A stretch of DNA of 64,000 bases from Desulfobulbus sp. Lineage in GTDB: Bacteria; Desulfobacterota; Desulfobulbia; Desulfobulbales; Desulfobulbaceae. The stretch is from NCBI RefSeq assembly GCF_030824455.1, contig NZ_JAVBXR010000015.1:1-64000 (forward strand). The letters are read 5' to 3'. Positions 3,846-51,621 of this stretch are shown here, in pieces. Position 1 is the first letter of the stretch, and each line of letters starts with the position of its first letter. Both the position numbers and the translations under genes were made by a program. Below the pieces are notes generated by a model. It was not told where the DNA came from. It worked only from the letters and a program-made list of their open reading frames with translations, and searched no databases.

Positions 3846-4589
3846 ATGGCCGAGCCGCTGAAATTGTTTGCAATTTTTCTTCTTGAACTGGGCCGTTCCC
3901 TCAAATTGCTGGGGATGGCGATTGCAGCTCTGACCCTGTCCATCTTTTTCCTCTCCGGTCGGATGCTCTCGGTTTTTCAGGCCCATCTGGGGGAAAAACT
4001 CTACTTTTTTTCGGTGGCCGGGCCTTTTCTGGCCCACGTCAAGATGGCTTTTTTCGGTGCCTTGTACGTGCTTATGCCTCTGTGCATGCATGTGCTGTGG
4101 AAGGCGCTGGGCAAGCCCTTCGGCGTCATCGGCAAGAAGCTGTTCTGGTTTGTGGCCGCCACCTGCTTCCTTTTTTACAGCGGCACGATTTTTTGTTATA
4201 TGCTGACCCTGCCCTTGGGCATCAAGTTTTTGCTCGGTTTTCAATCGCAGGATCTGCAGGCGGTGATTTCCATCACTCGGTTCGTCAATTTTGTGACCCT
4301 GTTCATCCTTGGTTTTGGCCTGGTGTTTGAACTGCCGGTGTTCATGGTGTTCAGCGCCCAAGTGGGGGCGGTTTCACGCGCCGCCTTTGCCCGCAATCGG
4401 CGCTATGCGGTGCTGGTGATTGCCATTCTGGCGGCCTTGCTCACTCCAACCCCGGATCTGGTCAACATGGGGCTGATGGGCTTGCCCCTGTATCTGCTCT
4501 ATGAATCAGGCATTTTGCTGATCGGGATGCTCGGTTTGGACAAGGCAACGCATGCGGTAGCGCCCAGCAACGAGGGAGGCGCGTCTTGA
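3846..4589 (+). CDS. tatC: Sec-independent (twin-arginine) translocase TatC
   Basis: Integral membrane receptor of the Tat pathway, which exports folded cofactor-loaded proteins such as periplasmic redox enzymes. 247 residues with about six hydrophobic segments. Family marks seen are the conserved Glu in FELPVF and the last-helix region LLTPTPDLVNMGLMGLPLYLLYE. The N-terminus (LLELGRSLKLL) resembles the usual HLxELRxRL. No tatA or tatB lies nearby, so the partner subunits must be elsewhere. It is divergent from serS with a 193-base gap. Confidence 0.92.
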   Translation: MAEPLKLFAIFLLELGRSLKLLGMAIAALTLSIFFLSGRMLSVFQAHLGEKLYFFSVAGPFLAHVKMAFFGALYVLMPLCMHVLWKALGKPFGVIGKKLFWFVAATCFLFYSGTIFCYMLTLPLGIKFLLGFQSQDLQAVISITRFVNFVTLFILGFGLVFELPVFMVFSAQVGAVSRAAFARNRRYAVLVIAILAALLTPTPDLVNMGLMGLPLYLLYESGILLIGMLGLDKATHAVAPSNEGGAS

Positions 4590-4622: not shown

Positions 4623-5042
4623 TCAGAAGGAAATCACCGCGATGTCGTGGGCGCGCAGCAGGGCTGCGGTGACCCCGGCCAGCGGTTCCAGGCCGCAGGA
4701 AGGGCTGCCGGATTTCAGCAGGCAGAGCGTGATGCGCTGCATCCGGGCAATGTCCAGCACCATCCGCGCCCCTTGGATGAACGCGGCGGACAGATCGTTG
4801 CCCAAAAGGTCAATCACCTGCGCCTTGCCGGCGAGCACGTCGTGGCCGTCGCCGCCGACCAAGCGGGCGGCGGGCCTTGGGGTGGGTAGGCCGCCGAGCT
4901 GTTCGGGGCAGACCGGAATCCAGTGGGGACAGTGCGCCAGCCGGCGCAGGCAGTCGGCATTGGCCTTGCTCTGGCCGTCGTATCGAGTGCATAGCCCTGT
5001 GAGACAGGCGCTGACCAGGCATTTTTGGGTGAGGAGGTCCAT
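4623..5042 (-). CDS. DUF523 family protein
   Basis: A 139-residue protein of the DUF523 family, whose biochemical role is not established. Family marks: the N-terminal KCLVSACLTGLCTRYDG, the VCPEQLGGLPTPRP segment, and the C-terminal LKSGSPSCG. These conserved cysteines suggest metal or Fe-S binding, but that is inference. It lies tail to tail with tatC and head to head with the FtsB-like gene, 38 bases apart, so the two may share a promoter region. Confidence 0.85.
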   Translation of the reverse strand: MDLLTQKCLVSACLTGLCTRYDGQSKANADCLRRLAHCPHWIPVCPEQLGGLPTPRPAARLVGGDGHDVLAGKAQVIDLLGNDLSAAFIQGARMVLDIARMQRITLCLLKSGSPSCGLEPLAGVTAALLRAHDIAVISF

Positions 5043-5080
5043 GGTTATCGAAGTTGAGTGTGAGAACGGGTTGGGAGTGT

Positions 5081-5407
5081 ATGGCGATACGTAAAGGACA
5101 GGAGGGCAACCGGCACGACGGCAAGGTGTTGTGGACGCTCGGCGTGGTCGTGGCGCTGCTGTTTCTGCTGTGGGTTTTCTTTGCCCCTGGTCGCGGTTTT
5201 TTTCACTACCGCAAATTGCAGCGGGAAATCGCCGCGCTGACCGAGGAGAACGCCCGGCTTGAGACCAAAAATGTCGAACTTTCCGGAGACATCAAGCGGT
5301 TGCAGTCCGACGACGCCTACCTTGAAGAGGTGGCGCGCAAAAAACACGGATTGTTGAAAAAGAATGAAACCGTGTTTGAGTTCGAGGGAGCCAAGAAAAA
5401 ACAATGA
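5081..5407 (+). CDS. FtsB/DivIC-like septum formation initiator
   Basis: Short bitopic membrane protein of 108 residues: a basic N-terminus, one hydrophobic helix (TLGVVVALLFLLWVFFAPG), then a coiled coil rich in Leu, Glu and Lys (REIAALTEENARLETKNVEL) and the family end ARKKHGLLKKNETVFEF. Proteins of this kind form the FtsB-FtsL-FtsQ divisome complex. The ATG at 5081 is preferred over the TTG at 5054 because a GGGAG lies just upstream, although the spacing is tight. The UDG-like gene follows 75 bases later on the same strand. Confidence 0.82.
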   Translation: MAIRKGQEGNRHDGKVLWTLGVVVALLFLLWVFFAPGRGFFHYRKLQREIAALTEENARLETKNVELSGDIKRLQSDDAYLEEVARKKHGLLKKNETVFEFEGAKKKQ

Positions 5408-5482
5408 CGCCCGTTTTTCCTGCAATCTGCCGGCCGCAATCCGCAGCCGGTGTGCCTGTGAGCATACCCACGGGAGCTGGCC

Positions 5483-6367
5483 TTGTCAGCTGAAAACATG
5501 GTGGACGCCGCCGGTCGCGAACCAGAATCGTCGGCCCTGCCGGACCGGGCCTCGGTTCTGGCTCTGGCCGCCGGTCTCCGCGCCAGTTTGCGCCTGCATC
5601 AGCAGCTGGGCATCCAGCAGTATCCGCTGACGCCTGGCCTGCGCGAATTTTTAAGCGCAAAGCGAGCCCCGCCGGTTGCGCGCCGTCGCCCGTCACCGGT
5701 TGTCGCTGCGCCGCAAGCGAGAAAACCGGCCACGGTGAAGGCTACGCAGCCAACTGTGCCCAGTTCGGACCAACTTTCGTTGCTGCAGCGCGATCTCGCC
5801 GAATGCAGTCTCTGTCCGCTAGCTTCGGCGCGTCGGGGCTTGGTGACGGGCCGCGGTGTCGCTGGCGCCCGCCTCTTGATTGTCGGCGATTTTTCTCGGC
5901 AGGAACCGGATTTCGCGGCGACCACCCTGTTCGGGGTGGCGGAAGACGCCATGCTGGGGAACATGGTGCGGGCGATGGGGCTGGCGCCTGAAGACGTCTA
6001 TGTGACCAACGCCGTCAAATGCTGCCCTTTAGGCGACCAAGCGCCGACCGCAGAGAGCGTGCAGGCCTGCCAGGGACATCTGCGCCGAGAGATCGCCTTG
6101 GTGCGGCCGCAGGTTATTCTGGCCATGGGCGATACGGCGGCCCGAGCCGTGCTTGGGGCCGTTGAACCGGCCTCACGCCTGCGCGGACGAATGCATCGCT
6201 CTGGCTGCAGCAACGCCGCAGGCGAGAGCGTCCCGGTCATGGTTACTTTCCATCCCCAACTTCTCCTGGCGCAACCGGGCATGAAACAGGCCGTCTGGGC
6301 CGATCTGCAGCAGCTCCAGCGCTGGTTGGCGGCGGCGGAAAGGGAGAACCCGGGGCAAACACGTTAA
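5483..6367 (+). CDS. Uracil-DNA glycosylase family 4-like protein
   Basis: 294 residues: about 100 variable, Pro- and Ala-rich residues, then a UDG-superfamily domain. The four expected Fe-S cysteines can be placed: CSLC, VTNAVKCCP and ESVQACQGHLRR. The end VTFHPQLLL resembles the family HPayLLR motif. The motif normally reading GExPGxxEDxxGxPFVG is strongly changed here (GDFSRQEPDFAATTLFGVAED), so catalysis on uracil is uncertain. The TTG at 5483 is chosen because GGGAG lies six bases upstream; the next in-frame start is ATG at 5498. Confidence 0.78.
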   Translation: MSAENMVDAAGREPESSALPDRASVLALAAGLRASLRLHQQLGIQQYPLTPGLREFLSAKRAPPVARRRPSPVVAAPQARKPATVKATQPTVPSSDQLSLLQRDLAECSLCPLASARRGLVTGRGVAGARLLIVGDFSRQEPDFAATTLFGVAEDAMLGNMVRAMGLAPEDVYVTNAVKCCPLGDQAPTAESVQACQGHLRREIALVRPQVILAMGDTAARAVLGAVEPASRLRGRMHRSGCSNAAGESVPVMVTFHPQLLLAQPGMKQAVWADLQQLQRWLAAAERENPGQTR

Positions 6368-17441: not shown

Positions 17442-18728
17442 ATGGCAAAGCATGAAACGCCTCTATTGGACGAACTGGAAAAAGGTCCATGGCCGAGTTT
17501 CGTCACCGACCTCAAACAGCAGGCTGCAACCAAGCCTGAGTGCTGGGACATTCTTGGCCAGCTTGAGCTTTCGTACAGAGACCGGATCACCCATTGGAAG
17601 CATGGCGGCATCGTCGGTGTTTTCGGATACGGCGGCGGCATCGTTGGTCGTTATTCTGACGTGCCGAAACAGTTTCCCGGCGTAGAGCACTTCCACACCG
17701 TTCGTATTGCCCAGCCCTCTGGTCTGTACTACTCCACCGAGAACCTTCGCGCCCTGATGAATCTGTGGGAGAAATACGGTTCCGGCGTTACCAACTTCCA
17801 TGGCTCCACCGGCGACATGATCTTCCTCGGCACCCGCACCGAGAATCTTGAGCCCCTGTTCTGGGATCTGACCCATGACCTGAAGCAGGATCTTGGCGGC
17901 TCCGGCTCCAACCTGCGTACTCCTGCCTGCTGTTTGGGCGAATCCCGTTGCGAGTGGGCCTGTTATGACGCTCAGGAAGTATGCAACAGCCTGACCCAGC
18001 GCTATCAGGACGAGATCCATCGTCCGGCCTTCCCGTACAAATTTAAGTTCAAATTCTCTGCATGTCCGAACGACTGCGTTGCCGCCATCGCCCGTTCCGA
18101 CTTTGCTGTTATCGGCACCTGGAAAGACAACATCCGCATCGATCAGGCCGCGGTGAAGAAATACATCGCCTGCGACGCTGAGTATCCGGCCAACGGCGGT
18201 GCGCACAAAGGCAAAGACTGGGGCAAATTCGACATCGAGAAAGAGGTTGTCGCCCTGTGCCCGACCCAGTGTATGTGGATGGAAGGCGGCGAGCTGAAAA
18301 TCGACGACACTGAGTGCACCCGTTGCATGCATTGCATCAACGTCATGCCTCGCGCTCTTCGTCCTGGCGCACAGAAAGGCGCATCCATCTGTATTGGCGC
18401 AAAAGCCCCGATTCTTGACGGCGCTCAGTTCGCCACCCTGGTTATCCCCTTCATCGAAGTCAACAAAGAGAACGACTTCGAAGACGTGGTTGACGTCATC
18501 GAGAAGGTGTGGGATTGGTGGATGGAAGTGGGCAAGAACCGTGAGCGTGTTGGTGAAACCATGCAGCGCATCGGCCTGCCGACCTTCCTCAAAGTTATGG
18601 AAGTAGAAGCCCTGCCGCAGCACGTTAAAGAGCCGCGTTCCAACCCCTATGTCTTCTGGGCTGAAGAGGAAGTACCTGGTGGCTGGGAGCGTGACGTCGT
18701 TGAATTCAGAAAACGTCACGCCGCCTGA
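17442..18728 (+). CDS. dsrA: Dissimilatory sulfite reductase, alpha subunit
   Basis: Catalytic partner in the DsrAB complex reducing sulfite in the cytoplasm, the last step of sulfate respiration. 428 residues. The sirohaem/[4Fe-4S] ligand set is complete: C164-x5-C170 (CCLGESRC) and C208-x3-C212 (ACPNDC). An inserted ferredoxin domain carries C273 and C277 (CPTQC) and C292, C295 and C298 (CTRCMHC). The ATG at 17442 has AGGAGG upstream. Codon choice is smoother and more AT at third positions than in the neighbours, as expected for a very highly expressed gene. dsrB follows after 52 bases. Confidence 0.98.
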   Translation: MAKHETPLLDELEKGPWPSFVTDLKQQAATKPECWDILGQLELSYRDRITHWKHGGIVGVFGYGGGIVGRYSDVPKQFPGVEHFHTVRIAQPSGLYYSTENLRALMNLWEKYGSGVTNFHGSTGDMIFLGTRTENLEPLFWDLTHDLKQDLGGSGSNLRTPACCLGESRCEWACYDAQEVCNSLTQRYQDEIHRPAFPYKFKFKFSACPNDCVAAIARSDFAVIGTWKDNIRIDQAAVKKYIACDAEYPANGGAHKGKDWGKFDIEKEVVALCPTQCMWMEGGELKIDDTECTRCMHCINVMPRALRPGAQKGASICIGAKAPILDGAQFATLVIPFIEVNKENDFEDVVDVIEKVWDWWMEVGKNRERVGETMQRIGLPTFLKVMEVEALPQHVKEPRSNPYVFWAEEEVPGGWERDVVEFRKRHAA

Positions 18729-48498: not shown

Positions 48499-49053
48499 AT
48501 GATTTTCTGTGACCCCATAAAGAACATCGTCTTGACCGGCTTCCGGGCCACGGGCAAGACCTCGGTGGGCAAGGCGCTTGCAGCGCAACTCGGCTGGAGC
48601 TTTTTAGACGCCGACAGTCTGCTCTGCACCCGATTGGACGCCGACGTCGCCGAGGTGGTGGCACGTCGCGGCTGGCCGTTTTTTCGTCAGGCCGAACGCC
48701 AGCTGCTGCAAGAACTCTCCGCAATGACCAACACGGTTCTGGCGACCGGCGGCGGCGCCATAGAACACCAGGACGAATGGCTGCGGCTGCGCGCCTGTTG
48801 TTTTGTCGTTTGGCTCGACGCCGATATCGACACCATCAGCGGGCGGATTGCCGCTGATCCCGCGTCTGCAACCCAGCGCCCCTCTCTGATTGGCGGCGTT
48901 TCTGCTCGTGATGAAATAGAAACATTGCTCAAACAACGCCGGCCGCTTTATGCCGCAGGTTCTGATCTGCGTCTTGACGCCGTTGGCGCCTCGCCTCCGG
49001 ACTTGGCGGCGCGCATTGTCGAAGCAATGGGGCGGCGCGCAACAAGTTGTTAG
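48499..49053 (+). CDS. aroK: Shikimate kinase
   Basis: 184 residues, phosphorylates shikimate in aromatic amino-acid synthesis. Walker A LTGFRATGKTSVGKALA, DADSLL with the shikimate-binding Asp, FRQAERQLL with Arg, and VLATGGGAIEHQDEW. ATG at 48499 follows GGAACAAG. The stop codon is made by an integron cassette: without it the gene would end TGA one residue earlier, so the insertion swaps the stop for TGT-TAG and adds a Cys. Kinase function should be intact. Confidence 0.93.
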   Translation: MIFCDPIKNIVLTGFRATGKTSVGKALAAQLGWSFLDADSLLCTRLDADVAEVVARRGWPFFRQAERQLLQELSAMTNTVLATGGGAIEHQDEWLRLRACCFVVWLDADIDTISGRIAADPASATQRPSLIGGVSARDEIETLLKQRRPLYAAGSDLRLDAVGASPPDLAARIVEAMGRRATSC

Positions 49054-49907
49054 GCCTTTATTAATTTTTTTTTCGCCCCAAGGAAATGTACGCAATGGAC
49101 ATCCCACGGATATTCAACATCACGGAGAGTGCGCACCGCATCCATAACCCGTTCACACCTGAAAAGTTTGCTACTCTCGGTACGGCTTTGCGCCTGGAGC
49201 CAGAGGACCGTGTTCTGGATCTCGGCAGCGGCTCGGGTGAGATGCTGTGCACCTGGGCACGCGACTATGGCATTGTCGGCACAGGCGTCGACATGAGCCA
49301 GTTGTTCAGCGAGCAAGCGAAGCGCCGCGCTGAAGCACTGGGGGTCGCTGATCGCGTCGAGTTCATTCATGGCGATGCTGCTGGTTACGTCTCCAGCGAG
49401 AAGGTCAGCGTGGCCGCTTGCGTTGGGGCCACCTGGATTGCCGGAGGAGTCGCTGGCACGATCGAACTTCTTGCGCAAAGCCTGCGCACCGGAGGCATCA
49501 TCCTCATCGGCGAACCTTACTGGCGGCAATTGCCGCCAACGGAAGACATCGCCAAGGGGTGTCTGGCCAACACAATCTCTGACTTCCTTGTGCTGCCGGA
49601 ACTGGTCGCGTCTTTCGGCCGCCTAGGCTACGACGTTGTGGAAATGGTGCTGGCCAACCAGGACGGCTGGGACAGATACGAGGCGGCCAAATGGCTCACC
49701 ATGCGCCGATGGCTTGAAGCCAATCCCGACGATGAGTTGGCGGAAGAGGTGCAAGCAAAATTGACCTCGGAGCCTGCGCGCCATGCAGCGTACACCCGTG
49801 AGTACCTTGGCTGGGGAGTGTTCGCGCTGATGCCGCGGCGTTGCCTCAACCAGGCCTAACAATTCATCAAAGCCGACGCCGTTTCGCGGCGCGGCTTAAT
49901 TCAGACG
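49050..49907 (+). mobile_element. Complete integron-type gene cassette inserted at the aroK stop codon
   Basis: 858-base unit. The left end is the core site GTTAGGC (49049-49055), whose G belongs to aroK. The right end is G49907, followed by ATAGGC of the chromosome. The cassette has one gene in the same direction as aroK, a short 5' leader of 45 bases and an attC. If it is rejoined as a circle, its attC ends in GTTAGGC, the exact complement of the other core GCCTAAC at 49854-49860. No integrase gene is in the window. The pre-insertion sequence reads TG|AT, a G|AT that fits the GWT rule for secondary sites. Confidence 0.85.
49095..49859 (+). CDS. SAM-dependent methyltransferase carried on the integron cassette
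   Basis: 254 residues. Class I methyltransferase fold with motif I VLDLGSGSGEMLC, the acidic residue in GVDMSQLFSEQA and FIHGDAAGYV; later blocks GGIILIGEPYWRQLP and DGWDRYEAAKWLTMRRWLE are unfamiliar. The substrate is unknown. ATG at 49095 has AAGGAA about nine bases upstream; the ATG at 49086 is too close to it. It fills most of the cassette, 36 bases after the left end plus leader. It reads in the same direction as aroK and glgA, so it can be transcribed from the host operon. Confidence 0.88.
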   Translation: MDIPRIFNITESAHRIHNPFTPEKFATLGTALRLEPEDRVLDLGSGSGEMLCTWARDYGIVGTGVDMSQLFSEQAKRRAEALGVADRVEFIHGDAAGYVSSEKVSVAACVGATWIAGGVAGTIELLAQSLRTGGIILIGEPYWRQLPPTEDIAKGCLANTISDFLVLPELVASFGRLGYDVVEMVLANQDGWDRYEAAKWLTMRRWLEANPDDELAEEVQAKLTSEPARHAAYTREYLGWGVFALMPRRCLNQA

Positions 49908-49913
49908 ATAGGC
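49854..49913 (+). repeat. attC recombination site (59-base-element type)
   Basis: 60 bases. Outer core GCCTAAC (49854-49860) and inner core position GATAGGC (49907-49913), where the last six bases belong to the target. The interior folds as AAGCCG paired with CGGCTT and CGCCG paired with CGGCG, with one extrahelical A between the two stems, around a TTTCG loop. It closely resembles the attC of aadA-type resistance cassettes in layout and sequence. It overlaps the stop of the methyltransferase gene. Confidence 0.9.
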
Positions 49914-49959
49914 GTCGCGCGTTCAAGCTGCTGTGCCGCGGACGCGGCCAAAGGATGTT

Positions 49960-51621
49960 ATGCAAATCGACGGTAACACAGAGGGCGGGCGGAACGCTGT
50001 CCGCTCGATATGGATGGTCAGCCGCGAATACCACGGCCTGGCCGGCGCCGGCGGCGTGAAGGACGTCTGCCGGCAACTGGCGGAAGCCCTGGCGAGGCAC
50101 GGGCGCGCTTCGGTCAGTGTGGTGATGCCGCGCTATGGTTTCATGGATGCTGATCGCCTTGGGTTTTCGCTTGAGCAGATCGGTGACAAGAGCGGGGTGA
50201 TCGGCGGCCGGCGGTACGAACATGTGTTTGAAGTGGACATGGATTACACCGCTGAGGAACGACGGGAGATTGTGGCGGTCTGGCGCAAGGAAATCAACGG
50301 CGTCGCGGTCGTGTTGATCGAGGCGGAGCGGTTCGCGGCCAAACGCGGGGTCTACACCTACACCGAAGAGGAGGCGAAGGAGGCGGCGTGGCAGCGTCGC
50401 GGCGAAGGGCATTATGATTATTTTGCCATGAACATCCTGCTGCAGAAGGCGGCCCTTGACCTGATGATCCTTTTGGAGGCGCGGCCCGACGTGATCCACT
50501 GTCAGGACGGGCACGCCGCGGTTCTGCCGGCGATGATGCGTGAAAACAGCGGCTATCGGCACTATTTTCACCGAACGGGCGCAGTGGTCACCATTCATAA
50601 CGCCGGGTTGGGGTACCATCAGGAAGTGGGCGACCTGGCCTTTGCCCATGCCGTGACCGATCTGCCGTTGAGAGTCGTTATGAAGGCCCGGCTTGGCGGC
50701 AGTTTTGACCCCTTCATCGTTGCCTCGGACTATGCGGTGCTCAACACGGTCAGCGAAAATTACGGCCGGGAATTGCAGCAGACGCCGGACGATGCGCGAA
50801 CCGGCTGGCTCGGGCACGCCTTACTGAAGCGGGGCGTAACGCTGGCCGGCGTCACCAACGGCATTGATCCCGCCTCATTTGATCCGACCCAGCCCAGGCG
50901 CCTGGGCTTGACCGCCGGCTACGACGTGCTGGCCGGCGATCTTGTCGGCAAGCAACAGTGCAAGGCGGCCTTGTTGGATAGGATTGCCGCGCGCGGTCCA
51001 TGGGACGAGGTGCGGCAGTTCGGCGGCTTGAGCGCCGCCACTGACGCGCCGCTGCTCACCTTTATCGGCCGGTTGACCACGCAGAAAGGGGTGGACGTGC
51101 TCATTGAGGCGGCTGGCGAGCTGTTGCTGGCCGACGGCTCCTGGCAATTGCTCGTCTTTGGCTCCGGCGCGCCGGAATTTGAGCTGCAGCTGGAGCAATT
51201 GGCAACGCTTGGCCCAGGCCAAGGCCGGGTCTGTTTTCTTCAGGGGTATGATCCCGTCTTGGCCAACAGCGTTTATGCGGCCGGTGATTTTTTCCTCATT
51301 CCGTCGCGTTACGAACCGTGCGGGCTGACCGACTACATTGCGCAATTGCTTGGCAATCTGCCGATTGTCCATCGGGTCGGCGGTCTGGTCAAGGTGCTTG
51401 ACGGCGAAACCGGATTTTCCTACGGCGACAACACTCCGGCCGCGCTGACGGCGGCCATTCTCCAGGCCCTGGAAACGCATAGGCGGGAACCGGAAACCAT
51501 CCGCTCCATGCAACGGGGCGCTGTGAAACACATCCTGCAACGGCACACTTGGGAAAAAGTGATGGAGGCCTATGTGGGGCTGTATCAGCAGGCAATGCGG
51601 ATGTGTTGCCGGGAGCGCTAG
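49960..51621 (+). CDS. glgA: Glycogen/starch synthase-like glycosyltransferase
   Basis: 553 residues of the GT5 family: two Rossmann-like domains, PDVIHCQDGHAAVLPAMM, LLTFIGRLTTQKGVDVLIEAA and the C-terminal SRYEPCGLTDYIAQLLGNLPIVHRVGGL. The usual N-terminal KxGGL glucosyl-binding motif reads GAGGVKDV, with Lys absent at the first position. Substrate is therefore uncertain. ATG at 49960 has AAAGGA upstream. Before the cassette arrived, it would have followed aroK by about 50 bases, so both likely formed one operon. Confidence 0.88.
   Translation: MQIDGNTEGGRNAVRSIWMVSREYHGLAGAGGVKDVCRQLAEALARHGRASVSVVMPRYGFMDADRLGFSLEQIGDKSGVIGGRRYEHVFEVDMDYTAEERREIVAVWRKEINGVAVVLIEAERFAAKRGVYTYTEEEAKEAAWQRRGEGHYDYFAMNILLQKAALDLMILLEARPDVIHCQDGHAAVLPAMMRENSGYRHYFHRTGAVVTIHNAGLGYHQEVGDLAFAHAVTDLPLRVVMKARLGGSFDPFIVASDYAVLNTVSENYGRELQQTPDDARTGWLGHALLKRGVTLAGVTNGIDPASFDPTQPRRLGLTAGYDVLAGDLVGKQQCKAALLDRIAARGPWDEVRQFGGLSAATDAPLLTFIGRLTTQKGVDVLIEAAGELLLADGSWQLLVFGSGAPEFELQLEQLATLGPGQGRVCFLQGYDPVLANSVYAAGDFFLIPSRYEPCGLTDYIAQLLGNLPIVHRVGGLVKVLDGETGFSYGDNTPAALTAAILQALETHRREPETIRSMQRGAVKHILQRHTWEKVMEAYVGLYQQAMRMCCRER

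Follow-up and report, generated by a model that had tools for sequence, protein, structure and literature searches.

The window analysed here is a stretch of 64,000 nucleotides from a Desulfobulbus sp. genome. In it, an aroK-type shikimate kinase gene is followed by a gene for a YjhP-family class I SAM-dependent methyltransferase and by a glgA-type glycogen/starch synthase gene, the original downstream partner of aroK (Table 1). The methyltransferase gene is contained in a complete integron gene cassette with its own attC. GlgA matched TIGR02095 (E 4.5e-75) with a score that does not reach the cut-off of that model. The window also carries dsrA at 17466-18704, which scored over its curated cut-off. 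This is consistent with a dissimilatory sulfate/sulfite reducer and agrees with the preliminary description, where the organism was called a sulfate reducer.

Table 1. Features of the aroK-glgA locus (window positions) and attC clusters elsewhere in the same genome (G000; contig, with positions in the excerpted locus)
Feature	Position	Strand	Basis or remark
aroK-type shikimate kinase; stop now TAG (49051-49053) from the cassette core	48499..49053	+	Pfam SKI, E 6.5e-37
Left core GTTAGGC (its G belongs to the target, TTAGGC to the cassette); insertion between 49049 and 49050	49049..49055	+	matches GTTRRRY
Integron gene cassette, 858 bp	49050..49907	+	sequence; flank-joining
YjhP-family class I SAM-dependent methyltransferase, 254 aa	49095..49859	+	phmmer to PDB; Pfam methyltransferase domains
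attC as lying in the chromosome; of this, the cassette contributes the bases up to 49907	49854..49913	+	covariance model; blastn; fold
Right junction between 49907 and 49908; reconstructed target G^AT (49049 + 49908-49909)	49907..49910	+	sequence; joined flanks
glgA-type glycogen/starch synthase	49960..51621	+	Pfam Glyco_transf_5
attC cluster	C7 (L182: 8993-10792)		five hits, towards the contig end on the attI/intI side
attC cluster	C88 (L180: 6436-8236)		three hits
attC cluster	C62 (L181: 2350-4942)		two hits

The cassette is a single one and is inserted at base precision in the aroK stop codon. The left junction reads ...CAACAAGTTG(49049)^TTAGGC(49050-49055), with the caret marking the recombination point, and the right junction ...TTAATTCAGACG(49907)^ATAGGC(49908-49913), with ...CAGACG before the crossover. 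The span and the joining of the left core at G49049, as first described, hold exactly in the sequence. A single base leaves the crossover ambiguous, the G common to the flanks and the cassette, as is expected for G^TT cleavage, where integron integrases cut. The layout is that of a cassette: TTRRRY follows the G at the recombination point (G^TTAGGC), one open reading frame lies near the left end in the same direction, and the attC occupies the 3' end. The methyltransferase gene is preceded by AAGGA at 49080-49084, has an alternative start at 49086 and ends with a TAA contained in the R'' box of the attC.

When the flanks were joined without the cassette, aroK was translated into 183 residues and ended with TGA, composed of 49048-49049 and 49908, followed by a second in-frame stop, TAG. 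The cassette is therefore placed between the second and the third base of the original stop codon. With the cassette, the frame reads TGT-TAG, and the protein has 184 residues (...ATSC), with one cysteine gained and the stop inside the cassette core. Thus, aroK survived since the cassette begins with TTAGGC and provides an in-frame TAG that closes the gene one codon later. The rejoined flanks read TGA-TAGGC, and the restored gap to glgA is 51 bases (49909-49959). Both the restored TGA with this reading and a gap of about 50 bases had been predicted in the preliminary description.

The attC has 60 bases, a type found in class 1 integrons. It consists of R'' GCCTAAC (49854-49860), an imperfect inverted repeat and the target sequence GATAGGC, which replaces the R' box GTTAGGC. 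In the circularised cassette R'' and R' are complementary at 7 of 7 positions, in line with the perfect match of the cores noted earlier. An inner L''/L' stem, an unpaired spacer and one clear extrahelical base (A23) are found in the predicted fold. Folding of the single strand, which had been proposed as a check, gave -18.8 kcal/mol for the circular 60-mer as ssDNA, compared to -7.7 +/- 2.0 kcal/mol for shuffled sequences (z -5.5); none of 200 shuffles was as stable. For detection, a pattern-based attC scanner was dropped in favour of a covariance model, since it performed near background on integrase loci. The covariance model, which was built from 25 attCs including that of the window and whose structure was defined manually on the basis of the R and L boxes, scored 57.7 bits at this site and 12.7 bits at the next unrelated place in the window. 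RNAalifold gave no consensus for the mixed attC alignment. As the window attC belongs to the training set, the independent test is a blastn search, in which the last 68 bases of the query matched the attC DNA of plasmid aadB cassettes with 90% identity (E 6e-15). The identity of the attC is well beyond chance.

The methyltransferase was matched over its full length by phmmer to the PDB entries 5bp7 (E 1e-145), 5epe (E 1e-138) and 1nkv (YjhP, E 1e-123), and a search of NCBIfam returned no specific name. The likeness to E. coli yjhP (1nkv, 5bp7, 5epe) is in this full-length match. E. coli yjhP lies in a topAI-yjhQ-yjhP operon and not in a cassette (PMC12121999), whereas the window gene does lie in a cassette. 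Knocking out yjhP in E. coli caused no growth defect and pointed to no sole m6A role (PMC12096079).

Among species genomes, the 80 best-matching relatives span many phyla and show 83-89% identity along most of their length. Relatives share the start MDIPRIF with the window protein. An intact GTTRRRY core is present shortly before the start codon in 30 of these 80, most often at about 41 bases and followed by a conserved leader. In four loci (L038, L040, L048 and L067) the gene belongs to an array of attCs and IntI is encoded no more than about 5 kb away, which shows that the methyltransferase gene is a true cassette gene. In L048, IntI is encoded at 1968-2957 and attCs are found at 3949, 4905 and 5794; the methyltransferase gene lies between the last two, and the attC after it is 88% identical to that of the window. 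Among 86 loci, an IntI-like match was detected in the fetched flanks of only 6. The same gene was observed with two attC types, one of about 67 bases (L038, L040, L055 and L067) and one of about 60 bases (L048, L086, L088 and the window), so the gene has changed its attC or has been captured more than once. In the methyltransferase copy of Smithella sp. SCADC (L088, about 4950-5853), the left core is GATAGGC and the right end GTTAGGC, the mirror of the cores in the window.

In the protein tree, the window copy groups with sequences from Accumulibacter, Zoogloeaceae, Marinobacter and one Desulfobulbaceae genome, whereas those of the two congeners carrying the gene fall outside this group. This mixing of phyla and the separation from the congeners indicate a lateral spread. 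In that Desulfobulbaceae genome (L036), the gene with an attC lies between smpB-like and tatA-like genes, named from their sequence; this different place marks it as an independent event.

The locus was then compared with that of the relatives. In all 17 same-genus genomes where it was found, aroK directly adjoins glgA or is fused with it, and no cassette is present. Mostly 9 to 85 bases lie between the stop of aroK and the first glgA codon in the alignment, with one overlapping pair, and AroK of the congeners is about 50-65% identical, so that the 51-base gap is not alignable base by base. In three of the congeners (G021, G008 and G018), a single reading frame, about 775-783 codons long or longer, runs through aroK and glgA with no intervening stop, which looks like a fusion of shikimate kinase and glycogen synthase. 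Five loci of the same family (L018, L021, L022, L025 and L028) have about 1.1-1.3 kb of other sequence, not the methyltransferase gene, between aroK and the part of glgA where the alignment starts. A search of 55 other genomes returned homologues of the methyltransferase gene in 5, all elsewhere in the genome, and in its own genome the gene is single copy. The expectation that relatives would lack the cassette at this place was therefore borne out, and those that have the gene carry it at other sites. With GlgA, no close relative was found among viral contigs.

Neither an integron-integrase match near the locus nor, with the covariance model, another attC in the window was found, which makes it a lone cassette. 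We searched its own assembly (92% complete, 127 contigs) piecewise and found no intact IntI and no TIGR02249 match over the cut-off. The tyrosine recombinase at the contig start (C54:5-769) scored only 57-58 bits against a cut-off of 265. At least three other attC clusters without a recognised integron integrase are present in the genome. A 48-residue stretch (C61:53851-54009, L204), a piece of the N-terminal half, matches only integron-integrase models with 51 bits and has no XerC/XerD match. A C-terminal fragment (C45:11984-12085, L209) scores best, narrowly, with the integron-integrase family. Both pieces are taken to be decayed fragments of an integron integrase. The attC clusters and the intI fragment rule out a genome without any integron history.

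Several congeners have an intact IntI, and in one of them (G013) an attC 91.5% identical to that of the window lies beside it. In another congener (G022), a cassette at about 6886-7331 of L185 (contig C95) combines a class 1-type attC with a glyoxalase-like protein, named from its sequence, and the detected IntI is on a different contig. The attC clusters, the intI fragment and the IntI of the congeners show that the lineage had integrons. The past integrase activity in this lineage, proposed in the preliminary description, is thereby supported more strongly than by the lone cassette alone. The simplest source of the integrase is probably the lineage's own IntI, now decayed, lost or unassembled; alternatively, an IntI may have acted in trans from an incoming element.

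We consider it highly probable that the cassette was integrated in the past by an IntI-mediated recombination of its attC with a secondary, attG-like site, G^AT. A circular cassette with the YjhP-type methyltransferase would have been taken in by an integron integrase, with the folded single bottom strand of the attC as the substrate, as established integron biology suggests. The attC would have recombined once with the double-stranded site 5'-G^AT-3', composed of the last two bases of the aroK TGA and the next T, and replication would then have resolved the product. The TAG brought in by the cassette would have closed aroK one codon later, allowing the gene to survive. The methyltransferase gene, at the usual short distance after the core, is probably transcribed with aroK and glgA by read-through from aroK, and the attC hairpin might have a polar effect on glgA.

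The target as reconstructed from the joined flanks reads TTG^ATAGG, which fits the G^WT rule as had been stated. The cassette-free aroK-glgA junction is predicted to be ...AAGTTGATAGGCGTC... (or GTTAGGC). The second form corresponds to the possibility that the cassette went into G^TTAGGC, a complete core-like site that an earlier cassette may have left behind, and that 49908 mutated from T to A after the insertion. The empty site would read AAGTTGATAGGC with a GAT target and AAGTTGTTAGGC with a later mutation. The right side GATAGGC is identical to the left core GTTAGGC at 6 of 7 positions, for which the chance is 0.0013 at a fixed offset, and G^TTAGGC would also have given aroK a working stop (TAG). 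However, one extra mutation is needed, while the joined flanks restore the in-frame TGA without any, and GAT is a documented secondary-site triplet (PMC10127599). We therefore regard a later mutation as unlikely.

That the cassette is the last one of a decayed array (CALIN) formerly between aroK and glgA is very unlikely. Multi-cassette attC clusters do exist elsewhere in the genome, but around this cassette the window has no other attC and no integrase match, rejoining the flanks yields a perfect stop and a gap like that of the congeners, and the 17 congeners have nothing between the two genes. Scarcely credible is an ordinary homologous or illegitimate recombination with an incidental attC-like repeat, or a chimeric contig: only the fragmented assembly speaks for it, whereas each end of the insert falls on a cassette end to one base, the attC shows complementarity between two ends separated by 858 bp, the GC content of the cassette (0.589) matches that of the host (0.593), and the single-copy gene offers no repeat to invite a mis-join.

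The position in a stop codon need not reflect targeting, and nothing shows that stop codons are preferred. A TGA followed by T makes GAT, and as cassette ends begin with TTAG, an insertion at such a point brings its own in-frame stop. Insertions inside an important gene would be lost, and the position is sufficiently explained by selection that keeps the harmless ones.

The G^AT target of the preferred IntI-mediated integration was compared with the sites of other lone methyltransferase copies. Both ends were readable in L071 (CTG^TTA), L093 (ATG^TTC), L096 (ACG^TTG) and L098 (CCG^TTA), and in their fetched flanks, some on short contigs, no other attC or IntI was detected. Together with TTG^ATA of the window, 5 of 5 fit G^WT; caution is due, as R' cores within an array likewise carry GTT. 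Secondary sites were described to follow GNT or GWTMW (PMC4618277), and cleavage between the G and the A of GAT has been reported (PMC10127599, citing Francia 1993). The core kept in 30 of the 80 relatives, the few loci with an IntI-like match and the lone copies in several phyla suggest, within a basis limited by short contigs, that the methyltransferase cassette is a recurrent wanderer, spreading across phyla largely outside integrons by single G^WT insertions that became fixed as chromosomal genes. We propose this only tentatively and hold it to be somewhat doubtful. If true, a widely shared class of chromosomal genes would owe its distribution to off-target integrase activity.

The window cassette belongs to a known kind, the SALIN (single attC lacking an integrase) or single cassette at a secondary site, and is not a new system. 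Like aadB in RSF1010 (Recchia and Hall 1995) and dfrA14 in strA (Ojo 2002), with such cases discussed in PMC11213556, it is one complete cassette with its own attC, precisely inserted at a short site of the G-T type that lies outside an integron. In contrast to these, it is chromosomal, in an environmental sulfate reducer, encodes a methyltransferase that is not a resistance gene, and spares the host gene through its position in a stop codon. It shares with SALINs (defined in PMC12690207) the single attC and cassette and the lack of a neighbouring IntI, and differs from them generally in that both ends and the target are resolved. SALINs are missed with default settings, where the threshold is two attC (PMC12444791). 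Two papers (PMC12901181, PMC12444791) describe attG integration, in which a cassette enters the genome at a site that is neither attI nor attC, and in this the window insertion is alike. As an environmental example, the cassette is clean and resolved unusually well, and other parts of its genome lend it support. Loot et al. (2024, Nat Microbiol 9:228) reportedly read attG as G^WT; their work is experimental in E. coli, and the window holds a natural footprint.

In conclusion, this footprint documents a known yet rarely documented route by which integron genes escape into chromosomes: a cassette entered a core-gene operon outside an integron, both crossovers are resolved and the host gene is intact. 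It shows how genes carried by cassettes can turn into ordinary genes of the chromosome. Together with the remaining lone methyltransferase copies, it provides a natural data set on which to test the G^WT rule and the importance that off-target integrase activity has in environmental bacteria.
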